DNA of 43,034 nucleotides, taken from the NCBI GenBank assembly GCA_022340515.1, contig JAJDNT010000284.1, positions 1-43,034 of the forward strand, in the 5' to 3' direction. The notes under the pieces are model-generated. The model was given only the letters and a program-made list of their open reading frames with translations. It was not told the DNA's origin and made no database searches. Made by a program: the position numbers and the translations under genes. This document shows, piece after piece, positions 1 through 20,168 of the stretch; position 1 is the stretch's first letter, and the number at the start of each line of letters is the position of its first letter. The DNA is from Deltaproteobacteria bacterium (GTDB lineage: Bacteria > Desulfobacterota > Syntrophobacteria > BM002).

Positions 1-1643
1 CAAAGGCCGTTCAAGGCCTGGAGCGCGGCGGTGCCATACATACCGTTGGGGCATTGGGCCACGCCTGTCCAGGATAGGGCTCCCTTGTTCTTGGCGAGGG
101 CAAACTCCAGGGCTATCCTTTCGATAGTTTCAGCGGGGACCCCGCTTATCTTGGCGGCCCACTCGGGGGTGCGGGCCGCACCGTCCTCTTCACCCATTAC
201 CCTTTTTTTAAACTCCTCAAATCCATGGGTCCAGTTCTCTACAAACTCCTTATCATAGAGGTTATTCTTTATGATCACGTAACACATTGCCATGGCCACA
301 GCGCCGTCGGTCGCCGGCTTCAAGGTGATCCACTCGGTTGCGGCGGCCGCTGTCTCGGACCTTCTCGGATCGAAGACCACAAGTTTGCTACCCCTCTTGA
401 GGGCAGCTTTCAGTTCGGCAGTCTTGCGCTGACCGTAGGAGCTGGCGAACTCATTCATCCCAAAATGGATGATGTAATCGGAGTCCTGGTAATTGATCCA
501 CGGACGTTTATCATTAAGATTGTGCTCGTTCGCCATACGATTGGAGTTGTCGCACATGGGCCGGTGGGTGGTCTTGGGGCAGCCCAAGTGGTCGAAGAGG
601 GCCTCGTGAATCCAATTGGCAAAGTCATTACCCCTGAAGTAGCCGAGCTTGCCCTGTTCTATGTTCTTTATCCCTTCGACGATCCTGTCTAAGGCCTCGT
701 CCCAAGTGGCTTTGCGGAAACGGTTGTTCTCCTTTATGAGCGGCGCCTTGAGCCGGTACGCGGAGTAGAGGTGTTTTGGCACAGAACCTCCCTTGGGGCA
801 GATCCTGCCGCCGCCTTTGGGGTCGCCGGTGAGACCGGTAGTACCGGTGAGGATGCCATCCTTCACCTTGGCCGTTATTCCGCAGAGGGCGCCGCAAGTG
901 TAACAGTGGGTGGGAACCGTCTTTTCCGGCCCCGGATCCAATGTACCTTCGGCCAGGGTGACATAAGTCGAATCAAGACCTAGCGCGTCTACAGCCCCCA
1001 CCATCTTTCTCGTGGTCTCTTCGCCTCTGGTAAATCCCTCAATCCTCATAGCCTCGCACATCAGGGCCCCACGAGTAAAATGGGCCAGGCCTTGGTAAAA
1101 ATCGGTCTGGGCAGATACTGCAAGCTGATCACAGAAAGCAGGCACCCAGTTCATATACTTGTTTTTGAAGAAGTCCTTGTACAGGTCCGCCTTACCCTGT
1201 TCCAGGAGGTAGCGGAGAAACTCCAGCTGCACTGCGATATGTTCCTCCAAATCCTTGTAGTCGGGAGACTTGCTCACGCCGGCCTTACGGAAAAACTCTC
1301 TCAATTCGAAAACCGGTTTCTGCATTACCACCGGTTCCTTGTTCACTTGGGCAGATTCGTATGGAAAGACGGGGTTGGCACCGGCGTTCAGAAAAAGATC
1401 GGCGTAATCGTACCTGAGCTCTTTGTAAAGCTCATCAGCAGTGCCGCTCTTAAGAAATGAAGTCATTACCTCCGCCCCACTTATAAGGTCGATGAACCCG
1501 CAACCTTTTACTGATTCATTGAACCCGCTTAGGAACTCATCTGTTTGCATCGCAGAAATGAGCTCAAGGGGTATTTCGTCACGGAATAGGGTTGAAAGAT
1601 AATGGTATCTCTTTGCCCTGGATTTCATGAATTCTATATCCAT
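1..1643 (-). CDS. TorD-like chaperone fused to molybdopterin oxidoreductase (partial)
   Basis: I translated the minus strand codon by codon from the ATG at 1643 through about 420 without a stop; the frame is also open at the left edge, giving about 547 residues in the window. Residues about 1-225 resemble the TorD/DmsD/NarJ family of cytoplasmic chaperones for molybdoenzymes (PVFPYES, then EEHIAVQLEFLRYLL). At about residue 246 a molybdopterin oxidoreductase begins with a 4Fe-4S motif (CYTCGALC...RICPKGG), followed by WDEALDRI and MCDNSN, whose Cys (about residue 364) is a plausible Mo ligand. No Tat signal is seen, so the enzyme is probably cytoplasmic. The substrate cannot be told because the C-terminus is outside. 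AAGGAG lies 11 nt before the ATG. The ORF track lists only shadows here because the real frame is open at the edge. Confidence 0.85.
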   Translation of the reverse strand, partial: MDIEFMKSRAKRYHYLSTLFRDEIPLELISAMQTDEFLSGFNESVKGCGFIDLISGAEVMTSFLKSGTADELYKELRYDYADLFLNAGANPVFPYESAQVNKEPVVMQKPVFELREFFRKAGVSKSPDYKDLEEHIAVQLEFLRYLLEQGKADLYKDFFKNKYMNWVPAFCDQLAVSAQTDFYQGLAHFTRGALMCEAMRIEGFTRGEETTRKMVGAVDALGLDSTYVTLAEGTLDPGPEKTVPTHCYTCGALCGITAKVKDGILTGTTGLTGDPKGGGRICPKGGSVPKHLYSAYRLKAPLIKENNRFRKATWDEALDRIVEGIKNIEQGKLGYFRGNDFANWIHEALFDHLGCPKTTHRPMCDNSNRMANEHNLNDKRPWINYQDSDYIIHFGMNEFASSYGQRKTAELKAALKRGSKLVVFDPRRSETAAAATEWITLKPATDGAVAMAMCYVIIKNNLYDKEFVENWTHGFEEFKKRVMGEEDGAARTPEWAAKISGVPAETIERIALEFALAKNKGALSWTGVAQCPNGMYGTAALQALNGL

Positions 1644-2090: not shown

Positions 2091-3197
2091 ATGGTGAGTG
2101 AAGTTTTGGCCATGGATTTGAGGGCTTCTTTGCAAGAAAATCTTTACGTTAAGCTTGACCGGTTGTTGGATGCTGCTGGTCTTGATGAAATCATCATGGA
2201 AAGGCATCTGGTTGCCATCAAGCTCCACTTCGGAGAAAAGGGCAACACCGGTTACATTCCTCCTACCTATTTGCGCCATTTGGTCAATCGAGTGCAAAAC
2301 CTGGGAGGTAAACCTTTTTTGACAGATACTAACACTCTCTATGTGGGTAGTAGGACCAACAGCGTGGATCATCTCACTACGGCAATCCAGAATGGCTTTG
2401 CTTATGCTGTGGCCGGTGCACCCTTGACCATAGCCGACGGCCTCAGAGGTAACGCTGAGGTAGCCGTACCAGTAAATCTTCCTATCCATGAGGAAGTTTA
2501 CCTTGGTGGGGACGTGGTGCATGCGGACGCCCTCATAAGCGCCGCCCACTTCAAAGGGCACGAACTTTCGGGATTTGGCGGTACCATTAAGAATCTCGGC
2601 ATGGGCTGCGCCTCCCGAAGAGGAAAACTTGCCCAGCATTGTGAGATCTCACCTCAATTTAACGCCAAAAAGTGCATCGGCTGCGGTGAGTGCGTGGCTC
2701 ACTGCCCAACTGAGGCAATCGAACTGGTCAAGAAAAAGGCCGTAAAAGATTCTGAGAAATGCATTGGCTGTGGTGAGTGTATAGCAGTGTGCCCGGAAGA
2801 GGCCGTCTCCATCCCCTGGGACAGCGACACAGCCCGCTTTCAGAAAAAGATGGTAGAGTACACAGTGGGTGTTCTCAAAGGTAAGGAAAACCGAACTTTC
2901 TACCTCAGTTTCGTCAGTCGGGTAACTCCACAGTGCGATTGTTATGGTTACAGCGATGTTCCTCTAGTAAAAGACGTGGGCATCCTGGCAAGCCGGGACC
3001 CGGTGGCCATCGATCAGGCTTCTGTGGATTTAGTCAATGCGCAGCCAGCCTTAGCTGACTGCTGCCTTGAAAAAAATAAGGGGCCCGGTGAGGACAAGTT
3101 CCGGGGAGTTTACCCTCACATTGACTGGAGCATCCAATTAGGCTATGCGGAAGAGCTGGGGTTGGGTAGCAGGGAATATAAGCTCGAGTATGTGTAG
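2091..3197 (+). CDS. DUF362 protein with two 4Fe-4S clusters
   Basis: A 368-residue cytoplasmic protein. The N-terminal and C-terminal parts match the DUF362 family (AIKLHFGEKGNTGYIPP, AHFKGHELSGFGGTIKNLGMG, ILASRDPVAIDQASVDL). Between them, at about residues 193-245, lie two ferredoxin motifs, CIGCGECVAHCP and CIGCGECIAVCP, each able to hold a 4Fe-4S cluster. Family members are thought to act in electron transfer, but no reaction is established. Start: ATG after a strong GAGAGGAGGAA. It is divergent from the Mo-oxidoreductase, so a redox partnership is possible but unproven. A REP-like repeat follows the stop. Confidence 0.9.
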   Translation: MVSEVLAMDLRASLQENLYVKLDRLLDAAGLDEIIMERHLVAIKLHFGEKGNTGYIPPTYLRHLVNRVQNLGGKPFLTDTNTLYVGSRTNSVDHLTTAIQNGFAYAVAGAPLTIADGLRGNAEVAVPVNLPIHEEVYLGGDVVHADALISAAHFKGHELSGFGGTIKNLGMGCASRRGKLAQHCEISPQFNAKKCIGCGECVAHCPTEAIELVKKKAVKDSEKCIGCGECIAVCPEEAVSIPWDSDTARFQKKMVEYTVGVLKGKENRTFYLSFVSRVTPQCDCYGYSDVPLVKDVGILASRDPVAIDQASVDLVNAQPALADCCLEKNKGPGEDKFRGVYPHIDWSIQLGYAEELGLGSREYKLEYV

Positions 3198-3314: not shown

Positions 3315-3812
3315 ATGACGAATACGATTAGACAGAAAAACTACAAAGTTGTTAAGGCTTTACTGCTTACCTTAGTACTCTTCTGTTCGCCCAAGTCAGC
3401 CTGGGCCCTCCAGACTCACCCGGCGCCGGAAGGCCTCTATGCCCATATGCTGGCGCACCTTTTCTTTATTGCCACTTTGGCAATATTTATCTATTGGCTG
3501 CAGACCACCGGGCTCGTTAGGGGAAAGGGCTGGCGTCTGATCCAAATCTCCTGCCTTATGTTCATCTTGTGGAACCTGGACACCTTCACGGTTCATTGGA
3601 TTGAATACACCATGACCAGAGACATGTTCATCACCACCGGACTCGACTGGTCTCACAGGCTTTCCATGAACGGTGGTTGGCGCAGCTGGTTGTATTATTT
3701 TGGCAAATTTGATCATTTACTCTGTGTGCCCGCCATGCTTTTCCTGCTCTTCGGCCTTCGCGATCTTTATAGACAAGCGGGTACTACTGAGGGGCTTTCA
3801 CAACATGATTAG
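3315..3812 (+). CDS. small membrane protein upstream of a sensor kinase
   Basis: 165 residues. An N-terminal signal-like hydrophobic stretch (ALLLTLVLFCSPKSAWA) is followed by about three membrane segments (AHLFFIATLAIFIYWL, ISCLMFILWNLDTF, and LLCVPAMLFLLFGL near the end). I do not recognise the family. The stop overlaps the ATG of the kinase gene (CATGATTAG), so the two are probably translationally coupled and the protein may be an accessory or sensing partner of the kinase. His residues in the predicted membrane region (AHMLAHLFF, HWIEYT, FDHLL) might bind a metal or haem, which is speculation. The Shine-Dalgarno sequence is weak. Confidence 0.75.
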   Translation: MTNTIRQKNYKVVKALLLTLVLFCSPKSAWALQTHPAPEGLYAHMLAHLFFIATLAIFIYWLQTTGLVRGKGWRLIQISCLMFILWNLDTFTVHWIEYTMTRDMFITTGLDWSHRLSMNGGWRSWLYYFGKFDHLLCVPAMLFLLFGLRDLYRQAGTTEGLSQHD

Positions 3813-5328
3813 TAGTCTCCCCCTCTTTCCAGTCTGGTTTGTTGACGTTCTGGGCTCGGCCATTATGATCATCATCTCCTTTGTCTGCGTGCGCTACGCC
3901 CAATTACTCCGTCGAACCGACAGAGACAACGTGATCTGGACTTATCTACTCTGGCTCTCTTTGGCCTTGGCCCTCTTTTCCGTCTCGCGATCAGTGGGGC
4001 ACATCGCCAAACACTTGCTCCTTCTTGCAGGCCATAGCGACGTCTGGGTAGCGCTGAGGCCCTTTAGCGGCTCGATTAACAGCTTGACCTTCGTCATTGC
4101 GGGTAGCATAACCCTCTTTTTCCAGAGAGTTCACCGGATTAATCTCCAAATCCTGAATGACAAAAGGGCCATTGAAAAGGCGAGTGAAGAACTCATTTGG
4201 CTCAACCGAAATTTGGAAGAAATCGTGCGCCAGCGAACCGAGGAACTCAGCAAGTCTGAGGAGAAATATCGGCGCATCTTCGAAGGATCTATGGACATTA
4301 TTATGATCCTTGACCTGCAAGGCAGATTCTTGGACATAAACCAGGCTGGACTCAGCATTCTCGGTTATCCTTCAAGGGACGAACTCACTGCAAATGCAAC
4401 CTTTGCAGATTTAATTGTGGAGCCGCCTAATCCCCACCAGCTTATGGAAGAGGTTGCTTTAGCCGGCTTCTGCAAAGACCTGGAGTGCAGGGTGCGGAAC
4501 CGGGATGAGGAGATCCGCACATGGCTTTTAAGTCTGACTGTCAGTAGAAAAACCGATGGGAAGGTAGGAGGATTCGAGGGCATTGCCAAGGATATTACCC
4601 ATCGAAAGAAAATGGAGCAGCAGCTCCTGCAGGCTGACCGTTTAGCCTCTTTGGGCGAACTCTCCGCCGGAGTAGCCCACGAGGTCAACAACCCACTCGG
4701 CATGATACTTGGCTATACTCAGTTATTACTTCGCAATGAGCCTGAGAACACTCAGGATTTTCAGGATCTTAAAATCATTGAAAAACACGCGCGCAACTGC
4801 AAAACGATTGTGGAGGATCTTCTCAACTTTGCTCGCAATGCCGAGACAAAGAAAGGTGCACTTCAGGTCAATGACCTGCTGCGGGAGGTCATATCGGTGG
4901 TGGAGCATCAGTTTAAATTGGACAACGTCATCATAGAAACCAGCCTCGACTCTTCCATCCCAGCTCTATATGCTGATGGTGAAAAATTGAAACAAGTGTT
5001 CATGAATCTATTGATGAATGCTAAACAGGCAATGGAAGGCCAGGGGCAAATCCGGATAACCACTGATCACGATTCTTCTCGAAACGAGGTCGCGGTTGTG
5101 GTGCAGGATACGGGCGCAGGCATACCTGCTGAAATTATAAAAAAGATTTTCGATCCCTTTTTCACTACCAAACCCACTGGGGAGGGTACTGGTTTGGGGT
5201 TGTCAGTGAGCTATGGTATCATCAAAGACCACCACGGAGAGATCGAGGTTCAGAGTACACCGGGAAAGGGGAGCACCTTTACCATCACCTTTCCGGTCAC
5301 ATTGGATGAGCAGAAAGATCCGTGTTGA
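3805..5328 (+). CDS. PAS-domain membrane histidine kinase (NtrB-like)
   Basis: About 507 residues. I chose the ATG at 3805 ([12 protein letters not shown]) rather than the track's 3673 because it follows GAGGGG and overlaps the upstream stop. Order: about three membrane segments (residues 8-108), a coiled coil to about 150, a PAS domain ([21 protein letters not shown]), a HisKA domain with phospho-acceptor His in [13 protein letters not shown], and a HATPase domain with N box ([10 protein letters not shown]), G1 box (DTGAGIP) and G2 box ([13 protein letters not shown]). The next gene is its likely NtrC-type partner. The signal is unknown; sensing probably involves the membrane region or the PAS domain. 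Confidence 0.93.
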
Positions 5329-5396
5329 CGAGTGGTAGAAGCCACCGACATTACGGGGTGAAGGGTCACTGCCCGATTGGCCCGTTTGAAGGGTGT

Positions 5397-6800
5397 ATGG
5401 TAAAGCAAATAAAAGATAGAGTTCTGGTTGTTGATGATGAGACTGACATGCTTCGTTTATTGGAGCGAAGTATCAGTCAAGAACTAGATTGTGAGATAGA
5501 TACCGCTGCCTCCGCCATAGAAGCCCTTAAACTGCTGGAGACCAAGAACTATGATCTGGCTCTGGTGGACATCCGCATGCCTGGAATGGATGGCATCGAA
5601 CTGCTGGATCGGGTAAAGCAGATCAACCCCTGGATGACCGTAGTGATAATGACCGCCCATGGAGTGGTGGAGCTAGCGGTAAAATCTATCAAAAAGGGTG
5701 CCTATGATTTCATTACCAAGCCATTTGATCATGAGGAACTCATTCACCTGCTGCGAAAGGCCCTGGAGCGCAGTCAACTTCTCCGAGAAAATTTAAATCT
5801 TCAGCGGCGGATCAGGAAGAAAGAGCCTTTTGAGAATCTTATCGGTTCCAGCCCGGCCATGCAGAGGGTCTACCAGACCATCCAGATGATAGCCAAAACC
5901 GATGTTACGGTTCTGGTTACCGGCGAATCTGGCACTGGCAAGGATCTGGCCGCTCGGGCAATCCATGCATTCAGCCATCGATATGACCAGCCTTATGTGA
6001 CGGTGAACTGTCCCACCTTGCCGGAGAACATTTTAGAAAGCGAACTCTTCGGCTACAAGAAGGGGGCCTTCACCGACGCCAGCAGCGACAAGATTGGATT
6101 ATTTGAAGAAGCTGGGGGTGGGACCATCTATCTTGATGAAATAGGAGACATTGCTCCAACTATTCAGACTAAATTACTGAGGGTGCTGCAAGAGAAAGAA
6201 ATCAAACCCCTAGGGCAGACCAAATCGATCAAAGTGGATGTCAGGGTTATTGCTTCCACCAATCGTGATCTCAAAGAAAAAATTCGCAAACAGGAATTCC
6301 GGGAAGACCTCTTTTACAGATTGAATGTGCTCACTGTGGAAATGCCTCCCTTGCGAGAACGTAAGGAAGACATTCCTCTCTTGGCTGAACACTTCCTCAA
6401 ACACTACTGCGAGGAGTTCGGCAAACCGCTCAAATCTCTATCCCCTGAGTTAATGGATTTGCTCTTGAGGAGGAGCTGGGAGGGCAACGTCAGAGAACTG
6501 GAAAACATAATCAACCGAGCAATTCTTCTTTCAACCGGGAATGTTATCAAGCCATTCGAAATAGGCTGGACTCCTGAGCCGACTGATAGCTGCGTGGTGG
6601 GGAGGGAGATTTACGGCATGGATTACAAAGAGGCGAAAGAGGAGGTGCTTCATCGCTTCCACGCGGAGTATCTGGGAGAACTTCTGCGGCGCCACAACGG
6701 AAATGTTACCCATTCAGCCCGAGAATGTGGCTTGGAACGACAGGCATTGCAACAAATTCTGAAACGCTACCGGATCAAATCTCAAGATTTCCGTCCCTAG
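5397..6800 (+). CDS. NtrC-family sigma54-dependent response regulator
   Basis: 467 residues from the ATG at 5397, which has AAGGG just upstream; the track's GTG at 5322 overlaps the kinase stop and adds 25 residues before the receiver. Domains: receiver with phospho-acceptor Asp58 (LVDIRMPG); AAA+ ATPase with Walker A GESGTGKD, sigma54-contact loop GAFTDA (the more common form is GAFTGA), Walker [12 protein letters not shown]; Fis-type helix-turn-helix at the C-terminus ([19 protein letters not shown]). It should activate sigma54 promoters when phosphorylated by the upstream kinase. I found no clear -24/-12 promoter nearby, so its targets are unknown. Confidence 0.93.
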
Positions 6801-11996: not shown

Positions 11997-13196
11997 ATGA
12001 AAAATTTACATATGGCAATTATCGCCCTGGTGTTGGTCTTCTTGGGCTACCATCAGGTGATGGGAAAAATGGAGAAAAAGATGAACGATGGACCACAAAA
12101 CTCCAAGGAGGCCTATTTTGCTGGTGGCTGTTTCTGGTGCACCGAAGCGGATTTTGAGAAGGTCGACGGCGTGATCGAAGCTATCTCAGGTTACACCGGC
12201 GGCCACCTTGCCAATCCCACCTACAAACAGGTGTCTGAAGGCGGGACCGGTCACGTGGAGGCGGTCAAGGTAGTCTACGACCCGGCCAAGGTTACCTACG
12301 AGGAACTTCTGCAAGTGTTCTGGATGCATGTGGATCCCACCGATGGAAAAGGCCAGTTCGTGGACCGTGGCTCCCAGTACCGCAGCGTTATCTTTTACGC
12401 CAACGAGGGAGAGCACCGTTTGGCCGAAGCCTCCAAGAAAAAACTGGCGGCATCGGGACGCTTTGACAAGCCCATAGTAACCGATATCCTCCCCTTGGGG
12501 CCCTTTTACCCGGCGGAGGACTATCACCAGGATTACTACAAGAAAAATCCTCTCCGCTACCGCTATTATCGTTACCGTTCCGGTCGGGACCAATTCCTGG
12601 AAAAAGTATGGGAACACGCGGAGTCGGACATGAAACCCCAGGCCAAAGCTGAGATGAATTCCAACATGCAAGACGAGAGGAGAGAGACCCAAATGACCTC
12701 GGGCAAAACGAAAGAAAAAATGGACAGCGGCATGGCATCGCACATGAAAAACAGCCAAATGTACAACCTTCCCGAAAAGAAGGAACTGCGTCAGCGGTTG
12801 ACGCCTATGCAATACAAGGTCACTCAGGAAAACGGTACCGAGCCGCCTTTCAACAACGCATACTGGAATAACCATCAAATGGGCATCTACGTAGACGTTG
12901 TCTCCGGGGAGCCTCTCTTCAGCTCAAAGGATAAATTTGATTCTGGCACGGGCTGGCCCAGCTTCACCCAGCCTTTGGAGCAAAATAATATAGTGGAGAA
13001 GACTGACCGGAGTTTTTTTATGAGTCGCACCGAAGTAAGGAGTAAACACGGCGACTCCCACCTTGGTCATGTATTTAACGACGGGCCTGACCCCACTGGT
13101 CTGCGCTACTGCATCAACTCGGCCGCCTTACGATTCATCCCCAGGGCAGACTTGGAAAAGGAAGGCTACGGTAAATACCGGAAGCTCTTCGAGTGA
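11997..13196 (+). CDS. msrAB: exported bifunctional methionine sulfoxide reductase MsrA-MsrB
   Basis: 399 residues. An N-terminal hydrophobic segment ([14 protein letters not shown]) suggests export or membrane anchoring. The MsrA domain has the catalytic Cys45 in GGCFWC and reduces the S-form of methionine sulfoxide. The MsrB domain, about residues 250-399, reduces the R-form; its catalytic Cys372 is in [11 protein letters not shown]. The zinc-binding Cys pair of some MsrB proteins is absent (SGTGWPSF). The linker of about 48 residues holds eight Met. AGGAGG precedes the ATG. The likely selenoprotein gene follows 20 nt after the stop, and the direct repeats upstream link the gene to the two-component system. 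Confidence 0.95.
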
Positions 13197-14198: not shown

Positions 14199-14267
14199 AT
14201 GGGGATTTTCTTTAAGAAACGGATTAATAGATTTAGCTTAACAAAGGAGGATTATTTAGATGGATAA
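14199..14267 (+). CDS. 22-residue small ORF coupled to TauE/SafE
   Basis: Too short for the track. An ideal Shine-Dalgarno sequence, AAAGGAGGTGAA, precedes ATG; the frame reads MGIFFKKRINRFSLTKEDYLDG and its TAA overlaps the start of the next gene (ATGGATAA), the usual form of translational coupling. The peptide is basic in its first half and has no membrane segment. It may be a leader peptide or a small regulatory protein. I know no family. Confidence 0.5.
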   Translation: MGIFFKKRINRFSLTKEDYLDG

Positions 14268-15426
14268 GAAGAAGCTGATTATCTTTTCATTGTTCTTGGT
14301 CGTCTTGGTAGGGGCAGGCTTGCTCCTCACCCAACCAGCTTTTGCGGATAAACTCGCGGAAGCCATTGCCAAGACGCCCACTGGCACAGAAGCAGGCATG
14401 ATTAACCAGGAGGCGCCTAAAGGTTTCTTGGGTATTCCCGGCGCTCCCAGCCCGAACCTCATCCTCGGCTTTCTCTGGGCCATCTGGGTAGGCTGGATTT
14501 TTTCCACGGTTGGAGCCTTTGGGGGAATTATGGCTGGTGTCGGCCACATGACCATCTTCGGCCTGGGTGACTATGCCCGTACCTTCAAGAAAACTTCACC
14601 CGTACTCAACAAGTTGATCACCGACAGCATCCGGGTTTCCAACCAATGGCTGGTAGGTTTGAGTGCGGCCATCTCCACTACTAACTATTATAGGATGGGC
14701 CGTCTTGTTGCTCCCCTCGGCATTGCCCTCGCCCTCGGCGGGGTGACCGGTTCTCTATTAATTCCCTGGCTCACCGCCGGCAAAATCAAATTGAGCTCCT
14801 ATATGGGGTATTTCGGCCTCTGTGTTTTTGTTATCGGTGGTTTTTTGTTTTATGAGACCACCCCCCGGGGACAGTCTAAAAAGAAGCAAGCCAAGGCTGC
14901 TGCTCAGGCTTTTGAAAAAAGCGTCAAGGAGAAAAAGGAAGGCAAGGCCCAAGATGAGGCAGCCATGGGAGTCAAAGTTACCAGCTTCAGCCTGGCGAGG
15001 ATCAAATTCACCTTTTTCGGGGTCGAATTCAGCTTTAATCCCCTCTGGCCCATAGTGGGTGGCCTCTTTATTGCCGCCCTGGCTTCCTTTCTGGGCATTG
15101 GTGGTGGTTTTCTCTACGTGCCCTTCATCACCAGTGTTGTAGGGTTGCCCATGTATCTTGTTGCCGGAACCTCCGCCCTAACCGTGCTTGTGGGTATGAT
15201 CGTAAGTATCTTCGGCTTTATGGTCCTTAAAGGCGCTGTGGTCCATTGGAGCCTGATCGGCGCTGAGCTGGTGGGAATCTTTGTAGGTTCCATGATCGGA
15301 CCGAGAACCTCCAAGTACATCCCTGACATCTGGCTAAAGCGGCTCTTTGTGGTCTTGGCCATCTATGTGGGCCTTCGCTATTTTTCCAAGGGCTTCTTCG
15401 GCCACAGCTGGGTGCCACCTTATTAG
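14260..15426 (+). CDS. TauE/SafE-family anion exporter
   Basis: 388 residues. After an N-terminal hydrophobic segment with a signal-like end (LLTQPAFADK), two membrane halves are separated by a charged cytoplasmic linker (SKKKQAKAAAQAFEKSVKEKKEGKAQDEA). The family hallmark repeats are WIFSTVGAFGGIMAGVGHM in the first half and ASFLGIGGGFLYVPFITSV in the second, matching the TauE/SafE family of putative sulfite, sulfoacetate or other anion exporters. AAAGGAGG precedes the ATG. In a sulfate reducer the substrate may be a sulfur oxyanion, which is inference. The genes on either side are a pseudo-receiver and a membrane protein. Confidence 0.9.
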   Translation: MDKKKLIIFSLFLVVLVGAGLLLTQPAFADKLAEAIAKTPTGTEAGMINQEAPKGFLGIPGAPSPNLILGFLWAIWVGWIFSTVGAFGGIMAGVGHMTIFGLGDYARTFKKTSPVLNKLITDSIRVSNQWLVGLSAAISTTNYYRMGRLVAPLGIALALGGVTGSLLIPWLTAGKIKLSSYMGYFGLCVFVIGGFLFYETTPRGQSKKKQAKAAAQAFEKSVKEKKEGKAQDEAAMGVKVTSFSLARIKFTFFGVEFSFNPLWPIVGGLFIAALASFLGIGGGFLYVPFITSVVGLPMYLVAGTSALTVLVGMIVSIFGFMVLKGAVVHWSLIGAELVGIFVGSMIGPRTSKYIPDIWLKRLFVVLAIYVGLRYFSKGFFGHSWVPPY

Positions 15427-15466: not shown

Positions 15467-15522
15467 GACCACAGAGGGCACAATGACCGCGCAGACCATG
15501 AATATCAGTGCCCTCTATGGTC
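15467..15522. repeat. inverted repeat between TauE/SafE and membrane protein genes
   Basis: GACCACAGAGGGCAC and GTGCCCTCTATGGTC are complementary at 14 of 15 positions, 26 nt apart. It belongs to the word-like intergenic repeats of this window and could form a strong hairpin in the transcript. Confidence 0.6.
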
Positions 15523-15549
15523 AAGAAAAAAACCAGAGGTTTTAATCCC

Positions 15550-16164
15550 ATGAATGCAATAGGAGGTTGGCTGGTAAACATTGATGAAGTCCTGATCCAG
15601 TTTTATAGGCTCACGGGTTTGACATTCCTGGACTACCTGTTGGGCACCTTCATTCTTGCCCTGATTAGCGTTATTTTAGGTGAACTAACCATCTCTCTGG
15701 CACTCAGATACAACAAAATTCACGTTAATACCATTACTGATGACATGGTGAAAATGAACAACTTATCCATCATGGCACTCAAGCATAGGGACAAGAAGAG
15801 CTATAAGGCTTGCAATGATACGGCCAACGACGCTTTTGGTAAATACTTCTTTAATATGATTGCCTATTCAGCTTCCTCTCTGTGGCCTGCCTTTTTCGCC
15901 CTTGCGTGGATGCAAACCCGTTTCAGCCAGGTGGAATTCCCTCTGCCTTACCCTGTCGAAACTATTTTGCCAACCATAGGCTACTTCCCCACCTTTCTGC
16001 TCTGTTACATTCTTGCCAGGATTCTCTTTAAAAACATCAGACGTTATCTTCCATATTTTAGTACCGTTCAGAAGCAGCTTGATGCGGCTGACAAAGAAAA
16101 ATCAGAAAGAATGATGACCTTTTCTGACCTAATGCCCGAAAAAAGTGAAGGAGTCAGAAACTAG
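15550..16164 (+). CDS. membrane protein of unknown function
   Basis: 204 residues from the ATG at 15550 (MNAIGGWLVNIDEV), which has AGAGG upstream; the track's start at 15508 is inside the inverted repeat. Membrane segments at about residues 25-45, 95-115 and 140-160. Between the first and second lies a charged helical segment (NNLSIMALKHRDKKSYKACNDTANDAFGKYFF). This layout loosely recalls the DUF106/EMC3-YidC group of membrane insertion factors, but I cannot confirm it. The charged C-terminal tail is probably cytoplasmic. It is likely co-transcribed with the TauE/SafE gene and may be its partner. Confidence 0.75.
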   Translation: MNAIGGWLVNIDEVLIQFYRLTGLTFLDYLLGTFILALISVILGELTISLALRYNKIHVNTITDDMVKMNNLSIMALKHRDKKSYKACNDTANDAFGKYFFNMIAYSASSLWPAFFALAWMQTRFSQVEFPLPYPVETILPTIGYFPTFLLCYILARILFKNIRRYLPYFSTVQKQLDAADKEKSERMMTFSDLMPEKSEGVRN

Positions 16165-16459: not shown

Positions 16460-17605
16460 CTAGGAATCACTATTAGAAGTCGCAAGCCATTGAAAATATT
16501 CCTGGACAAATCTGCCGGTTACTGCGCTGGGTAGGGTAAAGGTAGGTCCATTGTCTTTGGGGAGAATCGAGGTCAAGGCATGCAAGACGTTTATTGAAAG
16601 TCTCTGCAGTGATTGCTGAACCTCAGCCAAATCTGCTTCAGGATTAAATCGTTTTCCTTTCTGGGCTAGATCTGCGGCAATCCCCCCTTTTACTCCAGCC
16701 GAGATTTCAAGACCATGCATCCTGCAGCAGATGGGTCTGGCGTCATAAAGAATACACTTGCCCTCAAGGTTGAGAGGGCATTTGATCTTTTCCCGTTCAT
16801 ATAAAAGGTGAAGGGTCTCCTCACTATTATTAGCTTGGCGACCCTCCTGCTCGAGCCGCCTTCCGAGTTCCCGCAACCTCTTGGTTACCCCAATAGCCCT
16901 CTCTATGGCTGCTTTCCTTTCTGAGGTTTGGAGAGTTTTATTCATCTTGTGGCTCAAATAAGCAGCCTCCACTAGCTCTAGATCCACCAAACGGAAGCAG
17001 CAAGCCTCTGTTTCCCACCCGCAACTCAAAAGCGAGCTTTCCTCTACTGCTGCCTTTTTAAAGGCAGCGTCTACCTGTTCCAGCAGAATTTCGTAATCTT
17101 GAAAGAATGGTTTGAGATCTACGGTTCGTTTAGTCTCCAGAGAGGGCACCCTAAAAGTTAGTTCACCGGAATTCTTCTTGTACTTTCTTAACAGTCTCCA
17201 TTGGGTAAAGCTTGTGAAGCCTGCCCTGGTCTTCTCTACCTTTTTCCTGGCAAGCTTCATGCCGAAGCCTTTGCGTAAGAGATAGGCGGTGATAAACGTT
17301 CCTGATCTTCCTATTCCTTGACGGCAATGGACTAAGATTTTCTTACCTAAATATATTGCTTCATCCAGCCAATCGAGTGCTTTTTCCAAGTCCGGTATGG
17401 TTGGCGCCTCATCGTCACAAGTGGGCAGATAGTAAACCTCAAATCCTTGATCTGATTCTATCTTATGGAGATCGCAAAACTCACCGCAGAGGTTAACGAT
17501 GCCATCGATGCCTTGACTGCGAATGGATTCCAACTCATCGTAGGACATGGGTGCATGGCCCACGGCCAGGTATTCCGTAATCCAGTGAAGTCTGTAGGCT
17601 GCCAT
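16460..17605 (-). CDS. dual-specificity phosphatase fused to YkgJ-like Cys-cluster domain
   Basis: 381 residues. The N-terminal 150 form a Cys-dependent phosphatase: catalytic loop HCRQGIGRSG (Cys94, Arg100) and a general-acid region CDDEAP at 63-68. After a linker, the C-terminal half carries the Cys pattern of the YkgJ family (SCGWETEACCFRLVDLEL, then KCPLNLEGKCILYDARPICCRMHG), thought to bind a metal ion or Fe-S cluster. I know no standard protein with this pair. The start is 7 nt after the stop of the PEP-synthase-like gene, so they form an operon; the phosphatase may reverse the phosphorylation made by that enzyme. The substrate is unknown. Confidence 0.85.
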   Translation of the reverse strand: MAAYRLHWITEYLAVGHAPMSYDELESIRSQGIDGIVNLCGEFCDLHKIESDQGFEVYYLPTCDDEAPTIPDLEKALDWLDEAIYLGKKILVHCRQGIGRSGTFITAYLLRKGFGMKLARKKVEKTRAGFTSFTQWRLLRKYKKNSGELTFRVPSLETKRTVDLKPFFQDYEILLEQVDAAFKKAAVEESSLLSCGWETEACCFRLVDLELVEAAYLSHKMNKTLQTSERKAAIERAIGVTKRLRELGRRLEQEGRQANNSEETLHLLYEREKIKCPLNLEGKCILYDARPICCRMHGLEISAGVKGGIAADLAQKGKRFNPEADLAEVQQSLQRLSINVLHALTSILPKDNGPTFTLPSAVTGRFVQEYFQWLATSNSDS

Positions 17606-17612
17606 TTTGAAG

Positions 17613-20168
17613 CTATCTTTTCCCTATGGGCGAGAGATTGTAGTCTCCCACTAAAAATCTGTTGACTAAGGGCTCAACGTCCTTTTCATCTTTGAGAGCC
17701 ATGTCCAATAGTCGGGTGCAACCGAGGAGCAGACCGATATTCTCCAGCTTGGCCTCTATGGCCGACTTATCATCCCTGGTGAACTGAGCCTCGATGAGAT
17801 CACCCTTAGTCTCTGTTCTGAAGCCGAGTTTTGAGAGAATCTCTTCCAGAAACTTCACCCGGAGTGAGCGGGAGTAAGGTTTTGCACCTCCTCCGGCGAA
17901 TCTGAGCATAATGTAGTTGTTATCATAGTCTTCACCACACAAAGTGTCCAAGACCACAAAATGATAACCGAAATGAATGTTAAGATTGAGATAGTCGGCG
18001 GATAAGATAGCATAACTGCCCAAACTGTCCAAAGGCACGATACCAGCACTTATCCGGTCGAACTCCTCCCAGTCGAAGTGTTTAAGTTTGGGGTCCCAGT
18101 AGAGGTCGGGATGCCCGAGCCCCTTCCAAAGGGCCCTGAATGGCACGCTGGCGATCTCCTCCAACTCTACCACTTTTTTGGTTCCAGCCTCCTGCCGGAG
18201 ACCTTCACCCACGTCAAGTAGATGAACTGTTATGGGAATTTCTGAAATCAGCTTTTTTACGCCCTTTTTCCCTCTCCTTCCCCGTCCCCCGCGAGAGAAC
18301 ATCTCATAGACGCTCTTTTCATGGGCGAATCTTAGAATGTCGTGCAAGGTCTCACAGCCCTCGGGAACAAAGGATTCTGCCGTGGAATCAACAAGATTAA
18401 GGGGAGAGATGTAGTCGAGAACTTCTTTCATGGTCGCCATTAAGGGGCTGCCAACCAGTAAGGATCTGGCTCCACAAGCACTCTCCAGGAGCTGCTGCAC
18501 AACACCTTGGTAAACCAACTTAGCGTCTACATAAACCGTGACTTTTTCTCCCGCTGTGAGTGTGCTCGTGGCATGACCAGTATTTACCAGGGTGGGAATG
18601 CCAAACTCTCTGGCCACCGAGGCAAAGTGCCCTGCCGGACTGCCAACATCAGTTATAACAGCAGCGATTTTTCCTACCACTTTTACCAAATCCGGCGACG
18701 GCACCTTGGCCACTACGATTGCTCCCTTAGGAAGAGTCTCCAGATCTTTGGGTCCTTTAACTTTGTAGACCTCACCAGCGGCAATGCCGCCGCAAGCCCT
18801 ATTGCCTCCTGAGAGTAACACCCGATTGTCCACCCCGATGTTGCTACAATCAATCATCTCCGGTTCGACATCTTCTATATGGAGTGGTCTGGACTGAAGA
18901 ATGACAAGCTTGCCTTGATTGTCCATGCACCACTCGATGTCCTGAGGGACCCCGTAAAAATCCTCCAGTCTGATTGCCCACTCAACCAACTTGCGAGCAG
19001 AATCATCATCCAAGGCCAGGTTCGCCGGCAGATCGTTCACCCCTGAGACTATTTGAATTCCTCCTGCACTTGCAGAGATCGCTTTGACAGGCTGAAATAT
19101 TTCATCGTCGCGCTCGAGTTTACAGGGTGGTTCCCTCTTTACCCTGATAACGCTAGGGGTGACACTGCCATCGACGAGCAACTTGCCCAGACCCCATGTG
19201 CAGTGGATCACTACGGTATCATCTTCTGGGTCTTCAGGATCCACCGTGTAGACCACCCCGCTCGCCCCGGCATCAATCATTTCCAAGACCAGTACCGCCA
19301 TGGGAGTCTCTCGGTCCGACAGCCCGTAGTTGATGCGATAGTTAAGGGCCCTTGGCGAATACTTGCTGGCAATTACCTCTTTGTATGCCAGGACCACTAG
19401 ATTGGGTTCCACGTTGAGCACTGACTCGTACTGACCAGCAAAGGATGCCGCCCCGTCCTCGCCCACAGCGCTACTTCGTACTGACACCCCGAGTCTTCCT
19501 TTATGCTCTTTTCTCATTTCTTTGAGAGCAGTGGTGATCTTCTCTTCGATGGCTATGGGTACCCGGGCTGAAAGTATTAGTTCCACCAAAACCTTGGATG
19601 TTTTCTCCAATGAACTGGCAGAATTGATGTCCAGGCGGGCCAGCTTATCATCAATTCTCTCGCGGAGATTGTTGGTTTCCAGGAAGCAATTGTAGGAGTT
19701 AGCGGTAATTACAAAGCCGCGGGGCACGGGGAGGCCCAAACTTTTTCGGTTGGCGGCCAAGTTAAAAGCCTTTCCGCCAACCAACAGGTGGCTCTCAAGG
19801 GTCAATTGATCTAGGGACAGAACGAAGGGTGGAGAGGAGTCGGGCAAATCAGGGGCCAAGATTTGTTTTATCTTGACATCTATTTTACGGAAGTAATTAT
19901 CAAGTCTCGGGTAACAAGTAGGGCAGATTTCGCTGAGCGACTCGACAACCTTGGCCACAGACAAGGACAACTCCTTCAAAGTGCGCTCTATTGCAGCAAA
20001 ATCGACTTTGAGCTGATCGTAGTAGATTTGTTCGATTTCGGCGATTAGCTCATGGCTCTTTTTGTCGTACTCCAGCAAATTTCTAAAAGCTTCATATTTC
20101 TCCTTGGCCAGAAGGCTGGGATCGAAAATTTTATGAGTCCAGTGTTTAAACAAATTGCTCACATACAT
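17613..20168 (-). CDS. PEP-synthase-like ATP-grasp/phospho-His protein with novel C-terminal domain
   Basis: 851 residues. About 1-110 is helical and unfamiliar. About 115-435 is the ATP-binding domain of PEP synthase and pyruvate phosphate dikinase (VGGKAFNLA, SVRSSAVGEDGAASFAGQYESVLNV, SGVVYTVDPED, DIEWCMDNQGKLVILQSRP). Then a swivel domain with a catalytic His in GSPAGHFASVAREFGIPTLVNTG. The C-terminal 290 residues are not the PEP/pyruvate barrel and I do not recognise them (YWDPKLKHFDWEEFDRI, LNLNIHFGYHFVVLDTLCGEDYDNN). So it probably phosphorylates something other than pyruvate. Rifampin phosphotransferase shows that this machinery can be re-targeted. It sits between a receiver gene and a phosphatase gene. 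Confidence 0.85.
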   Translation of the reverse strand: MYVSNLFKHWTHKIFDPSLLAKEKYEAFRNLLEYDKKSHELIAEIEQIYYDQLKVDFAAIERTLKELSLSVAKVVESLSEICPTCYPRLDNYFRKIDVKIKQILAPDLPDSSPPFVLSLDQLTLESHLLVGGKAFNLAANRKSLGLPVPRGFVITANSYNCFLETNNLRERIDDKLARLDINSASSLEKTSKVLVELILSARVPIAIEEKITTALKEMRKEHKGRLGVSVRSSAVGEDGAASFAGQYESVLNVEPNLVVLAYKEVIASKYSPRALNYRINYGLSDRETPMAVLVLEMIDAGASGVVYTVDPEDPEDDTVVIHCTWGLGKLLVDGSVTPSVIRVKREPPCKLERDDEIFQPVKAISASAGGIQIVSGVNDLPANLALDDDSARKLVEWAIRLEDFYGVPQDIEWCMDNQGKLVILQSRPLHIEDVEPEMIDCSNIGVDNRVLLSGGNRACGGIAAGEVYKVKGPKDLETLPKGAIVVAKVPSPDLVKVVGKIAAVITDVGSPAGHFASVAREFGIPTLVNTGHATSTLTAGEKVTVYVDAKLVYQGVVQQLLESACGARSLLVGSPLMATMKEVLDYISPLNLVDSTAESFVPEGCETLHDILRFAHEKSVYEMFSRGGRGRRGKKGVKKLISEIPITVHLLDVGEGLRQEAGTKKVVELEEIASVPFRALWKGLGHPDLYWDPKLKHFDWEEFDRISAGIVPLDSLGSYAILSADYLNLNIHFGYHFVVLDTLCGEDYDNNYIMLRFAGGGAKPYSRSLRVKFLEEILSKLGFRTETKGDLIEAQFTRDDKSAIEAKLENIGLLLGCTRLLDMALKDEKDVEPLVNRFLVGDYNLSPIGKR

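Follow-up and report, generated by a model that had tools for sequence, protein, structure and literature searches.

TorD-type chaperones have been studied as separate, system-specific proteins: known members of the TorD/DmsD/NarJ family (PF02613) are about 180–250 aa long, many of them bind Tat signal peptides, and the best-known tasks of the type are Tat proofreading and cofactor insertion. Among molybdoenzymes, PsrA and PhsA are Tat-exported catalytic subunits of ABC membrane complexes, B being the Fe-S and C the membrane subunit; acetylene hydratase (2e7z), a Mo/W enzyme, consists of a single soluble chain with one 4Fe-4S cluster and Cys as metal ligand, and has no fused chaperone. In Desulfobacterota, a molybdopterin enzyme and a TorD-family chaperone are found together, in the context of sulfur metabolism, in the MOLY cluster (molyA/molyB/molyC) of sulfur disproportionators, where MolyA and MolyB were described as likely extracellular and the chaperone as separate (PMC12998232). 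The thiosulfate reductase and sulfite oxidoreductase steps of disproportionation are treated as unsettled in published work (PMC9751629, PMC12998232, PMC3739170).

The stretch analyzed here, further called the window (43,034 nt from a Deltaproteobacteria bacterium), is contig C217 of a 342-contig assembly (G000). Its minus strand contains, from 1643 to 3, one stop-free frame of 547 codons starting with the ATG at 1643–1641. This gene differs from the MOLY cluster in encoding one chain, without an export signal and without a B subunit, and is not of the MOLY type. Its features are as follows.

3–1643, minus: TorD–molybdoenzyme fusion gene, truncated at the contig edge after 547 of ~930 codons and continuing at G000:C257:2-1054
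1655–1660, minus: Shine-Dalgarno AAGGAG of the fusion gene, read from the sequence, main starts of relatives compared
1059–1643, minus: TorD-type chaperone domain, residues 1–195, with the PF02613 match at residues 62–172 (window 1128–1460)
927–1058, minus: linker, residues 196–239, the least conserved stretch, without a Tat motif or a conserved internal start
762–926, minus: 4Fe-4S domain (PF04879), residues 240–294, with four invariant Cys and an invariant Lys
3–755, minus: molybdopterin oxidoreductase domain (by Pfam), residues 297–547, incomplete
552–554, minus: codon of Cys364, predicted Mo/W ligand in the invariant HRxMCDN motif, by alignment to PsrA and acetylene hydratase

The original prediction had read here a TorD-type domain followed by a 4Fe-4S and Mo-binding oxidoreductase in a continuous frame. 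The frame is indeed open to base 3 and preceded by a good Shine-Dalgarno sequence, and the Pfam matches are PF02613 (Nitrate_red_del/TorD, 9.5e-21), PF04879 (residues 240–294, 1.8e-10) and PF00384 (Molybdopterin, residues 297–476, 4.7e-19, partial profile). The PF02613 score of the window protein is 74.7 bits, above the gathering cut-off of 22.2 (73.7–105 bits in relatives), and in a sequence search TorD (1n1c) is matched by residues 4–192 with 1.1e-8. In full-length relatives, Molybdop_Fe4S4, Molybdopterin and Molydop_binding all exceed their cut-offs, as characteristic of the DMSO-reductase superfamily; the Molydop_binding part of the window's own gene sits on contig C257. Among NCBIfam models, those of TorD and DmsD match the N-terminus, and the closest enzyme model is thiosulfate reductase PhsA, whose score of 265 is far below the cut-off of 694, so that the substrate cannot be read off the family.

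Leftward extension of the gene, suggested in the original prediction, was achieved by a search with the catalytic domain only. The remaining C-terminal 350 codons are at the edge of contig C257, and the gap between C217 and C257, judged against the relative G005, is 33 codons. The C257 part is 95% identical to G005 in both nucleotides and protein (the window part, 96% and 97%, respectively), and is followed by genes for a substrate-binding protein and a CoA-ligase-like protein, same as in G005. A second copy of the fusion is represented by an N-terminal fragment at a contig edge (G000:C267:1-258, L015), with 86% protein and 84% nucleotide identity. The genome thus has two copies, and this may explain the break of the assembly inside the fusion gene. 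The C267 fragment adjoins unrelated genes, for a copper-type P-type ATPase and an Fe-S protein.

Conservation was assessed in an alignment of 36 full-length fused sequences. All 36 retain the four Fe-S Cys, the following Lys (K284) and the HRxMCDN motif, whose Cys aligned with the metal-ligand Cys of PsrA and of acetylene hydratase. In the TorD part, PYES and H135 are invariant and the D/E-H motif nearly so, PYES and D/E-H being surface motifs of the TorD family; the least conserved stretch is the linker (about residues 196–240). The domain thus shares with the TorD/DmsD/NarJ proteins a score above the family cut-off, both motifs and the association with a molybdoenzyme, but it is joined to the catalytic chain, has no Tat signal, and is not a stand-alone protein of about 200 aa.

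Two observations had been named that would speak against the fusion, a frameshift near 920–1000 and a start with a ribosome site near the 4Fe-4S motif that splits the gene in relatives. The same frame is continuous in relatives of 52–97% identity, leaving no place for the frameshift. The ribosome-site match near the 4Fe-4S motif has a mean of 3.5 bases versus 3.7 for random positions, compared to 5.1 bases on average at the real start in relatives, and there is no conserved internal start. The 36 N-termini are free of Tat signals (two have an incidental RR), and the N-terminus is the TorD domain itself, therefore a cytoplasmic location is the natural conclusion; we consider the enzyme very probably cytoplasmic, as originally suggested.

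The AlphaFold model built from the 36-row alignment has pLDDT 84.6 and pTM 0.87. Its TorD part (residues 3–201) is almost wholly helical and modeled with high confidence; the structure search returned the catalytic part only. The latter (residues 238–930) is closest to polysulfide reductase PsrA (2vpw; Z 34.9, 659 residues, 2.8 Å), followed by arsenate reductase ArrA (Z 31.9) and acetylene hydratase (Z 31.3), the hydratase being also matched with 4.7e-46 in a sequence-based comparison. Loops around the predicted metal ligand are of low confidence, as would be expected for a cofactor-free model. With PsrA/PhsA the fusion shares the closest solved fold, the best NCBIfam model, the Cys ligand at the same place and the 4Fe-4S domain, but it has no signal, no conserved adjacent B/C genes and a score far under the PhsA cut-off, and carries the fused chaperone. 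The likeness to acetylene hydratase includes the soluble single chain, one 4Fe-4S cluster, the Cys ligand and high structural similarity.

The same fusion was looked for in related genomes, and about 60 fused genes, some of them cut by contig ends, were found in Desulfobacterota and in Archaeoglobi MAGs. Complete relatives are single frames of about 930–950 aa, e.g., that of G005 with 930 aa (97% identical to the window part) and those of G010, G018, and G029 with 929–949 aa. Scanning of bacteria and archaea, one genome per species, with patterns derived from the TorD part yielded 48 loci, and both halves are in one frame apart from contig-end cuts, with one partial gene (L068) and one clear exception (L061). 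In this latter MAG the fusion frame is in four pieces (L061:5001-7834), due to either gene decay or assembly errors. The carriers are recorded as Desulfobacteraceae, Desulfobulbaceae, Desulfocapsaceae and ‘Deltaproteobacteria’, as well as three Archaeoglobaceae/Archaeoglobales MAGs; they include cultured Desulforhopalus vacuolatus DSM 9700 and Desulfofustis glycolicus DSM 9705, and the fusion is also present in Desulfocapsa and relatives.

In the collections searched, the fusion is confined to Desulfobacterota and Archaeoglobi. Some ‘Deltaproteobacteria bacterium’ records are labeled Myxococcota in the tree, yet they are placed among Desulfobacterota, and hence the label is probably name-derived. 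Contamination does not seem an obvious source of the archaeal copies, because the gene order around the fusion is common to two Archaeoglobus MAGs, the fusion and its flanks are similar in base composition, and the archaeal fusions form their own clade in the tree. Plasmid records gave no match of at least 60% identity, and among the matches listed identity was at most ~33%.

A profile of the catalytic part only was run on three sets of genomes, from the class (55), the phylum (395) and the archaeal phylum (294). All matches above 1000 bits are in fused frames of 933–988 aa, three intermediate ones (657, 709, and 806 bits) are fragments at contig ends, and all the rest, at most ~352 bits, are in unfused frames of 700–822 aa. 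Neither an unfused member of the enzyme clade nor split genes of this clade were found in these searches of sampled genomes of both phyla. In the maximum-likelihood tree, a branch supported at 100/100 separates the 47 fused sequences from the others, the stem length being 1.1 changes per column; the fused group is recovered in 200 of 200 bootstrap trees, with long-branched outgroups placed unsurely. Moreover, each of 18 carrier genomes has exactly one fused PF02613 match, and all other PF02613 proteins there are in frames of 184–254 aa. In 10 of these 18 carriers (G000, G005, G018, G029, G161, G337, G375, G390, G433, and G435) the fusion is the only PF02613 protein detected; other molybdopterin enzymes are encoded in these genomes.

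Given the clean separation of scores, the single clade and one fused copy per carrier, this looks like one old fusion event, kept since, amid ordinary stand-alone chaperones. That the covalent union of chaperone and enzyme is genuine, as first proposed, is practically certain, with single frames throughout the clade. Its parts are of known kinds, a TorD chaperone and an enzyme of the DMSO-reductase superfamily; we found no description of a native TorD–molybdoenzyme fusion, nor of such a conserved union as a cytoplasmic enzyme, in the open-access literature searched, which given this coverage is not proof. Public databases may well list individual fusion genes under names such as ‘molybdopterin oxidoreductase’ or ‘TorD family protein’.

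A search for electron-transfer subunits downstream had been proposed. No Fe-S, membrane-anchor or cytochrome subunit consistently adjoins the fusion across the loci examined, and a TauE/SafE-type protein and a small membrane protein recur instead. The relevant genes of the window are as follows.

2091–3197, plus: DUF362 / 2x4Fe-4S protein, divergent neighbor common to G005 and G010
3315–3812, plus: small membrane protein, recurrent neighbor (family 3, 25 loci)
3673–5328, plus: membrane PAS sensor histidine kinase, judging by relatives probably starting near 3800
5322–6800, plus: sigma-54-type response regulator, named from its own sequence
14260–15426, plus: TauE/SafE-family membrane protein, 62% to the neighbor in Desulfofustis glycolicus and 41–42% to the neighbors in Archaeoglobus MAGs
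15508–16164, plus: small membrane protein beside TauE, counterpart of small TauE neighbors elsewhere, with weak homology

The TauE/SafE-type protein is encoded one to four genes from the fusion in 26 of 49 loci, with four to nine TauE genes per genome checked; the probability of such proximity by chance is roughly 1.5% per locus, and since the loci are related to each other, this figure is only a rough guide. G018 and G029 are among the loci without this linkage, and in G010 a TauE gene is about 10 kb from the fusion. The small membrane protein, often accompanying TauE, is seen at 18 loci; between groups, small TauE-neighbor proteins have only weak homology (16–22% identity), and the model of the small membrane protein has pTM 0.38. 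Both TauE and the small membrane protein adjoin the fusion not only in bacteria but also in Archaeoglobus, and this occurrence in both domains is the strongest functional clue. Response regulators also recur, as does a membrane sensor kinase accompanied by another small membrane protein; the sensor system in the window spans 3315–6800. At some loci (L043:9574-11259, L025:2641-4344, L032:8209-9969) TauE is extended at its N-terminus by a domain of ~200 residues that looks secreted and matches no Pfam family. This domain is common among the linked TauE proteins and absent from the window and Archaeoglobus forms.

On balance we favor the reading of the fusion as a single-chain cytoplasmic Mo/W enzyme with a chaperone working in cis and probably a sulfur substrate. 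It would be a Mo/W-bis-pyranopterin enzyme of the polysulfide/thiosulfate-reductase fold with a predicted Cys ligand, whose dedicated TorD-type chaperone has become the N-terminal domain. As no export of the enzyme is expected, release of the chaperone for Tat transport would be unnecessary: the TorD domain probably keeps the apo catalytic domain in a state able to receive the 4Fe-4S cluster and the Mo/W cofactor, and then remains attached. The earlier claim that the enzyme carries its own maturation factor stands as to the fused domain with its retained chaperone motifs, while self-maturation is what we infer; family knowledge and conservation make it likely that the TorD domain chaperones its own enzyme in cis.

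The proposed substrate is a sulfur compound, either thiosulfate, sulfite or polysulfide, which the enzyme would convert in the cytoplasm of prokaryotes that reduce sulfate or disproportionate sulfur, soluble carriers presumably passing the electrons. TauE proteins carry several anions, and the one linked to the fusion may move a sulfur anion that is the substrate or product of the enzyme, which the nearby two-component system may regulate; these roles of TauE and the sensor system are suggested by gene proximity. The carriers are organisms of the sulfate-reducer type. Of 19 carrier assemblies, 18 have dsrA above the cut-off, and the remaining one, G717, holds only a fragment of the enzyme gene; because dsrA is frequent among non-carriers as well (65 of 97 relatives above the cut-off), the link to sulfur is circumstantial, and we consider arguments for and against a sulfur substrate evenly balanced.

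The alternative that survives best, albeit unlikely, assigns the TorD domain a permanent structural or docking role (a lid, an oligomerization module, or an anchor to TauE and the small membrane proteins) with chaperoning lost. In its favor, the domain by construction stays on the mature enzyme, and the gene is genetically linked to membrane proteins; on the other hand, the signature chaperone motifs are retained, and the 10 carriers mentioned above have no other detected PF02613 protein. A non-redox enzyme (a hydratase or transferase) similar to acetylene hydratase or transhydroxylase would explain the absence of an adjacent electron-transfer subunit, and the hydratase, by general knowledge also soluble and single-chain, is among the closest structures; we still regard this as improbable, since its catalytic Asp13 is absent, the position being occupied by Gly251 (Leu in the Desulfocapsa group), and PsrA is closer. 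Identity with acetylene hydratase itself was rejected for the same missing Asp. It is highly improbable that the fused domain additionally acts in trans on other molybdoenzymes of the same cell: many such enzymes are encoded in carriers where it is the sole PF02613 protein detected, but TorD-family chaperones are, by general knowledge, usually system-specific, the other half of the carriers have separate PF02613 proteins, and the profile may miss divergent chaperones. Finally, an artefact of sequencing or assembly, or the misreading of two genes as a single one, to which the cut at the contig end and the second partial copy on C267 could point, has next to no chance and was rejected on the evidence of relatives and start-site analysis, the same single frame with one strong start being observed in assemblies made independently, in cultured isolates, and in both bacteria and archaea.

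This natural, conserved fusion, having no export signal, separates the two best-known tasks of TorD-type proteins, and the one-polypeptide, 1:1 pair of chaperone and enzyme offers a chance to study chaperone-assisted insertion of the Mo/W cofactor. Lineage restriction, TauE linkage and presence in Desulfocapsa and its relatives make the fusion a concrete candidate for an unassigned cytoplasmic sulfur reaction, for which cultured strains exist. More tentatively, an unrecognized cytoplasmic sulfur molybdoenzyme with a built-in chaperone, present in sulfate-reducing bacteria and Archaeoglobi, could, together with TauE and the small membrane protein, account for a step that sulfur metabolism still lacks, e.g., the activity of thiosulfate reductase or sulfite oxidoreductase that has been proposed for disproportionators.

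Several further genes were observed near the fusion. In G010 (L017:1-3917), a separate 694-aa molybdopterin enzyme and an Fe-S/FAD oxidoreductase are encoded a few kb downstream of it, an arrangement seen at no other locus; rhodanese with a multihaem cytochrome (L033) or a NIR_SIR protein (L018) are beside the fusion at single loci. A 399-aa frame at 11997–13196 of the window reads as an ordinary MsrA–MsrB peptide methionine sulfoxide reductase fusion. The region 16460–20168 of the window encodes a dual-specificity-phosphatase-like protein and a PPDK_N/PEP-utiliser protein, and homologs of one or both (families 4 and 14) recur near the fusion at other loci.
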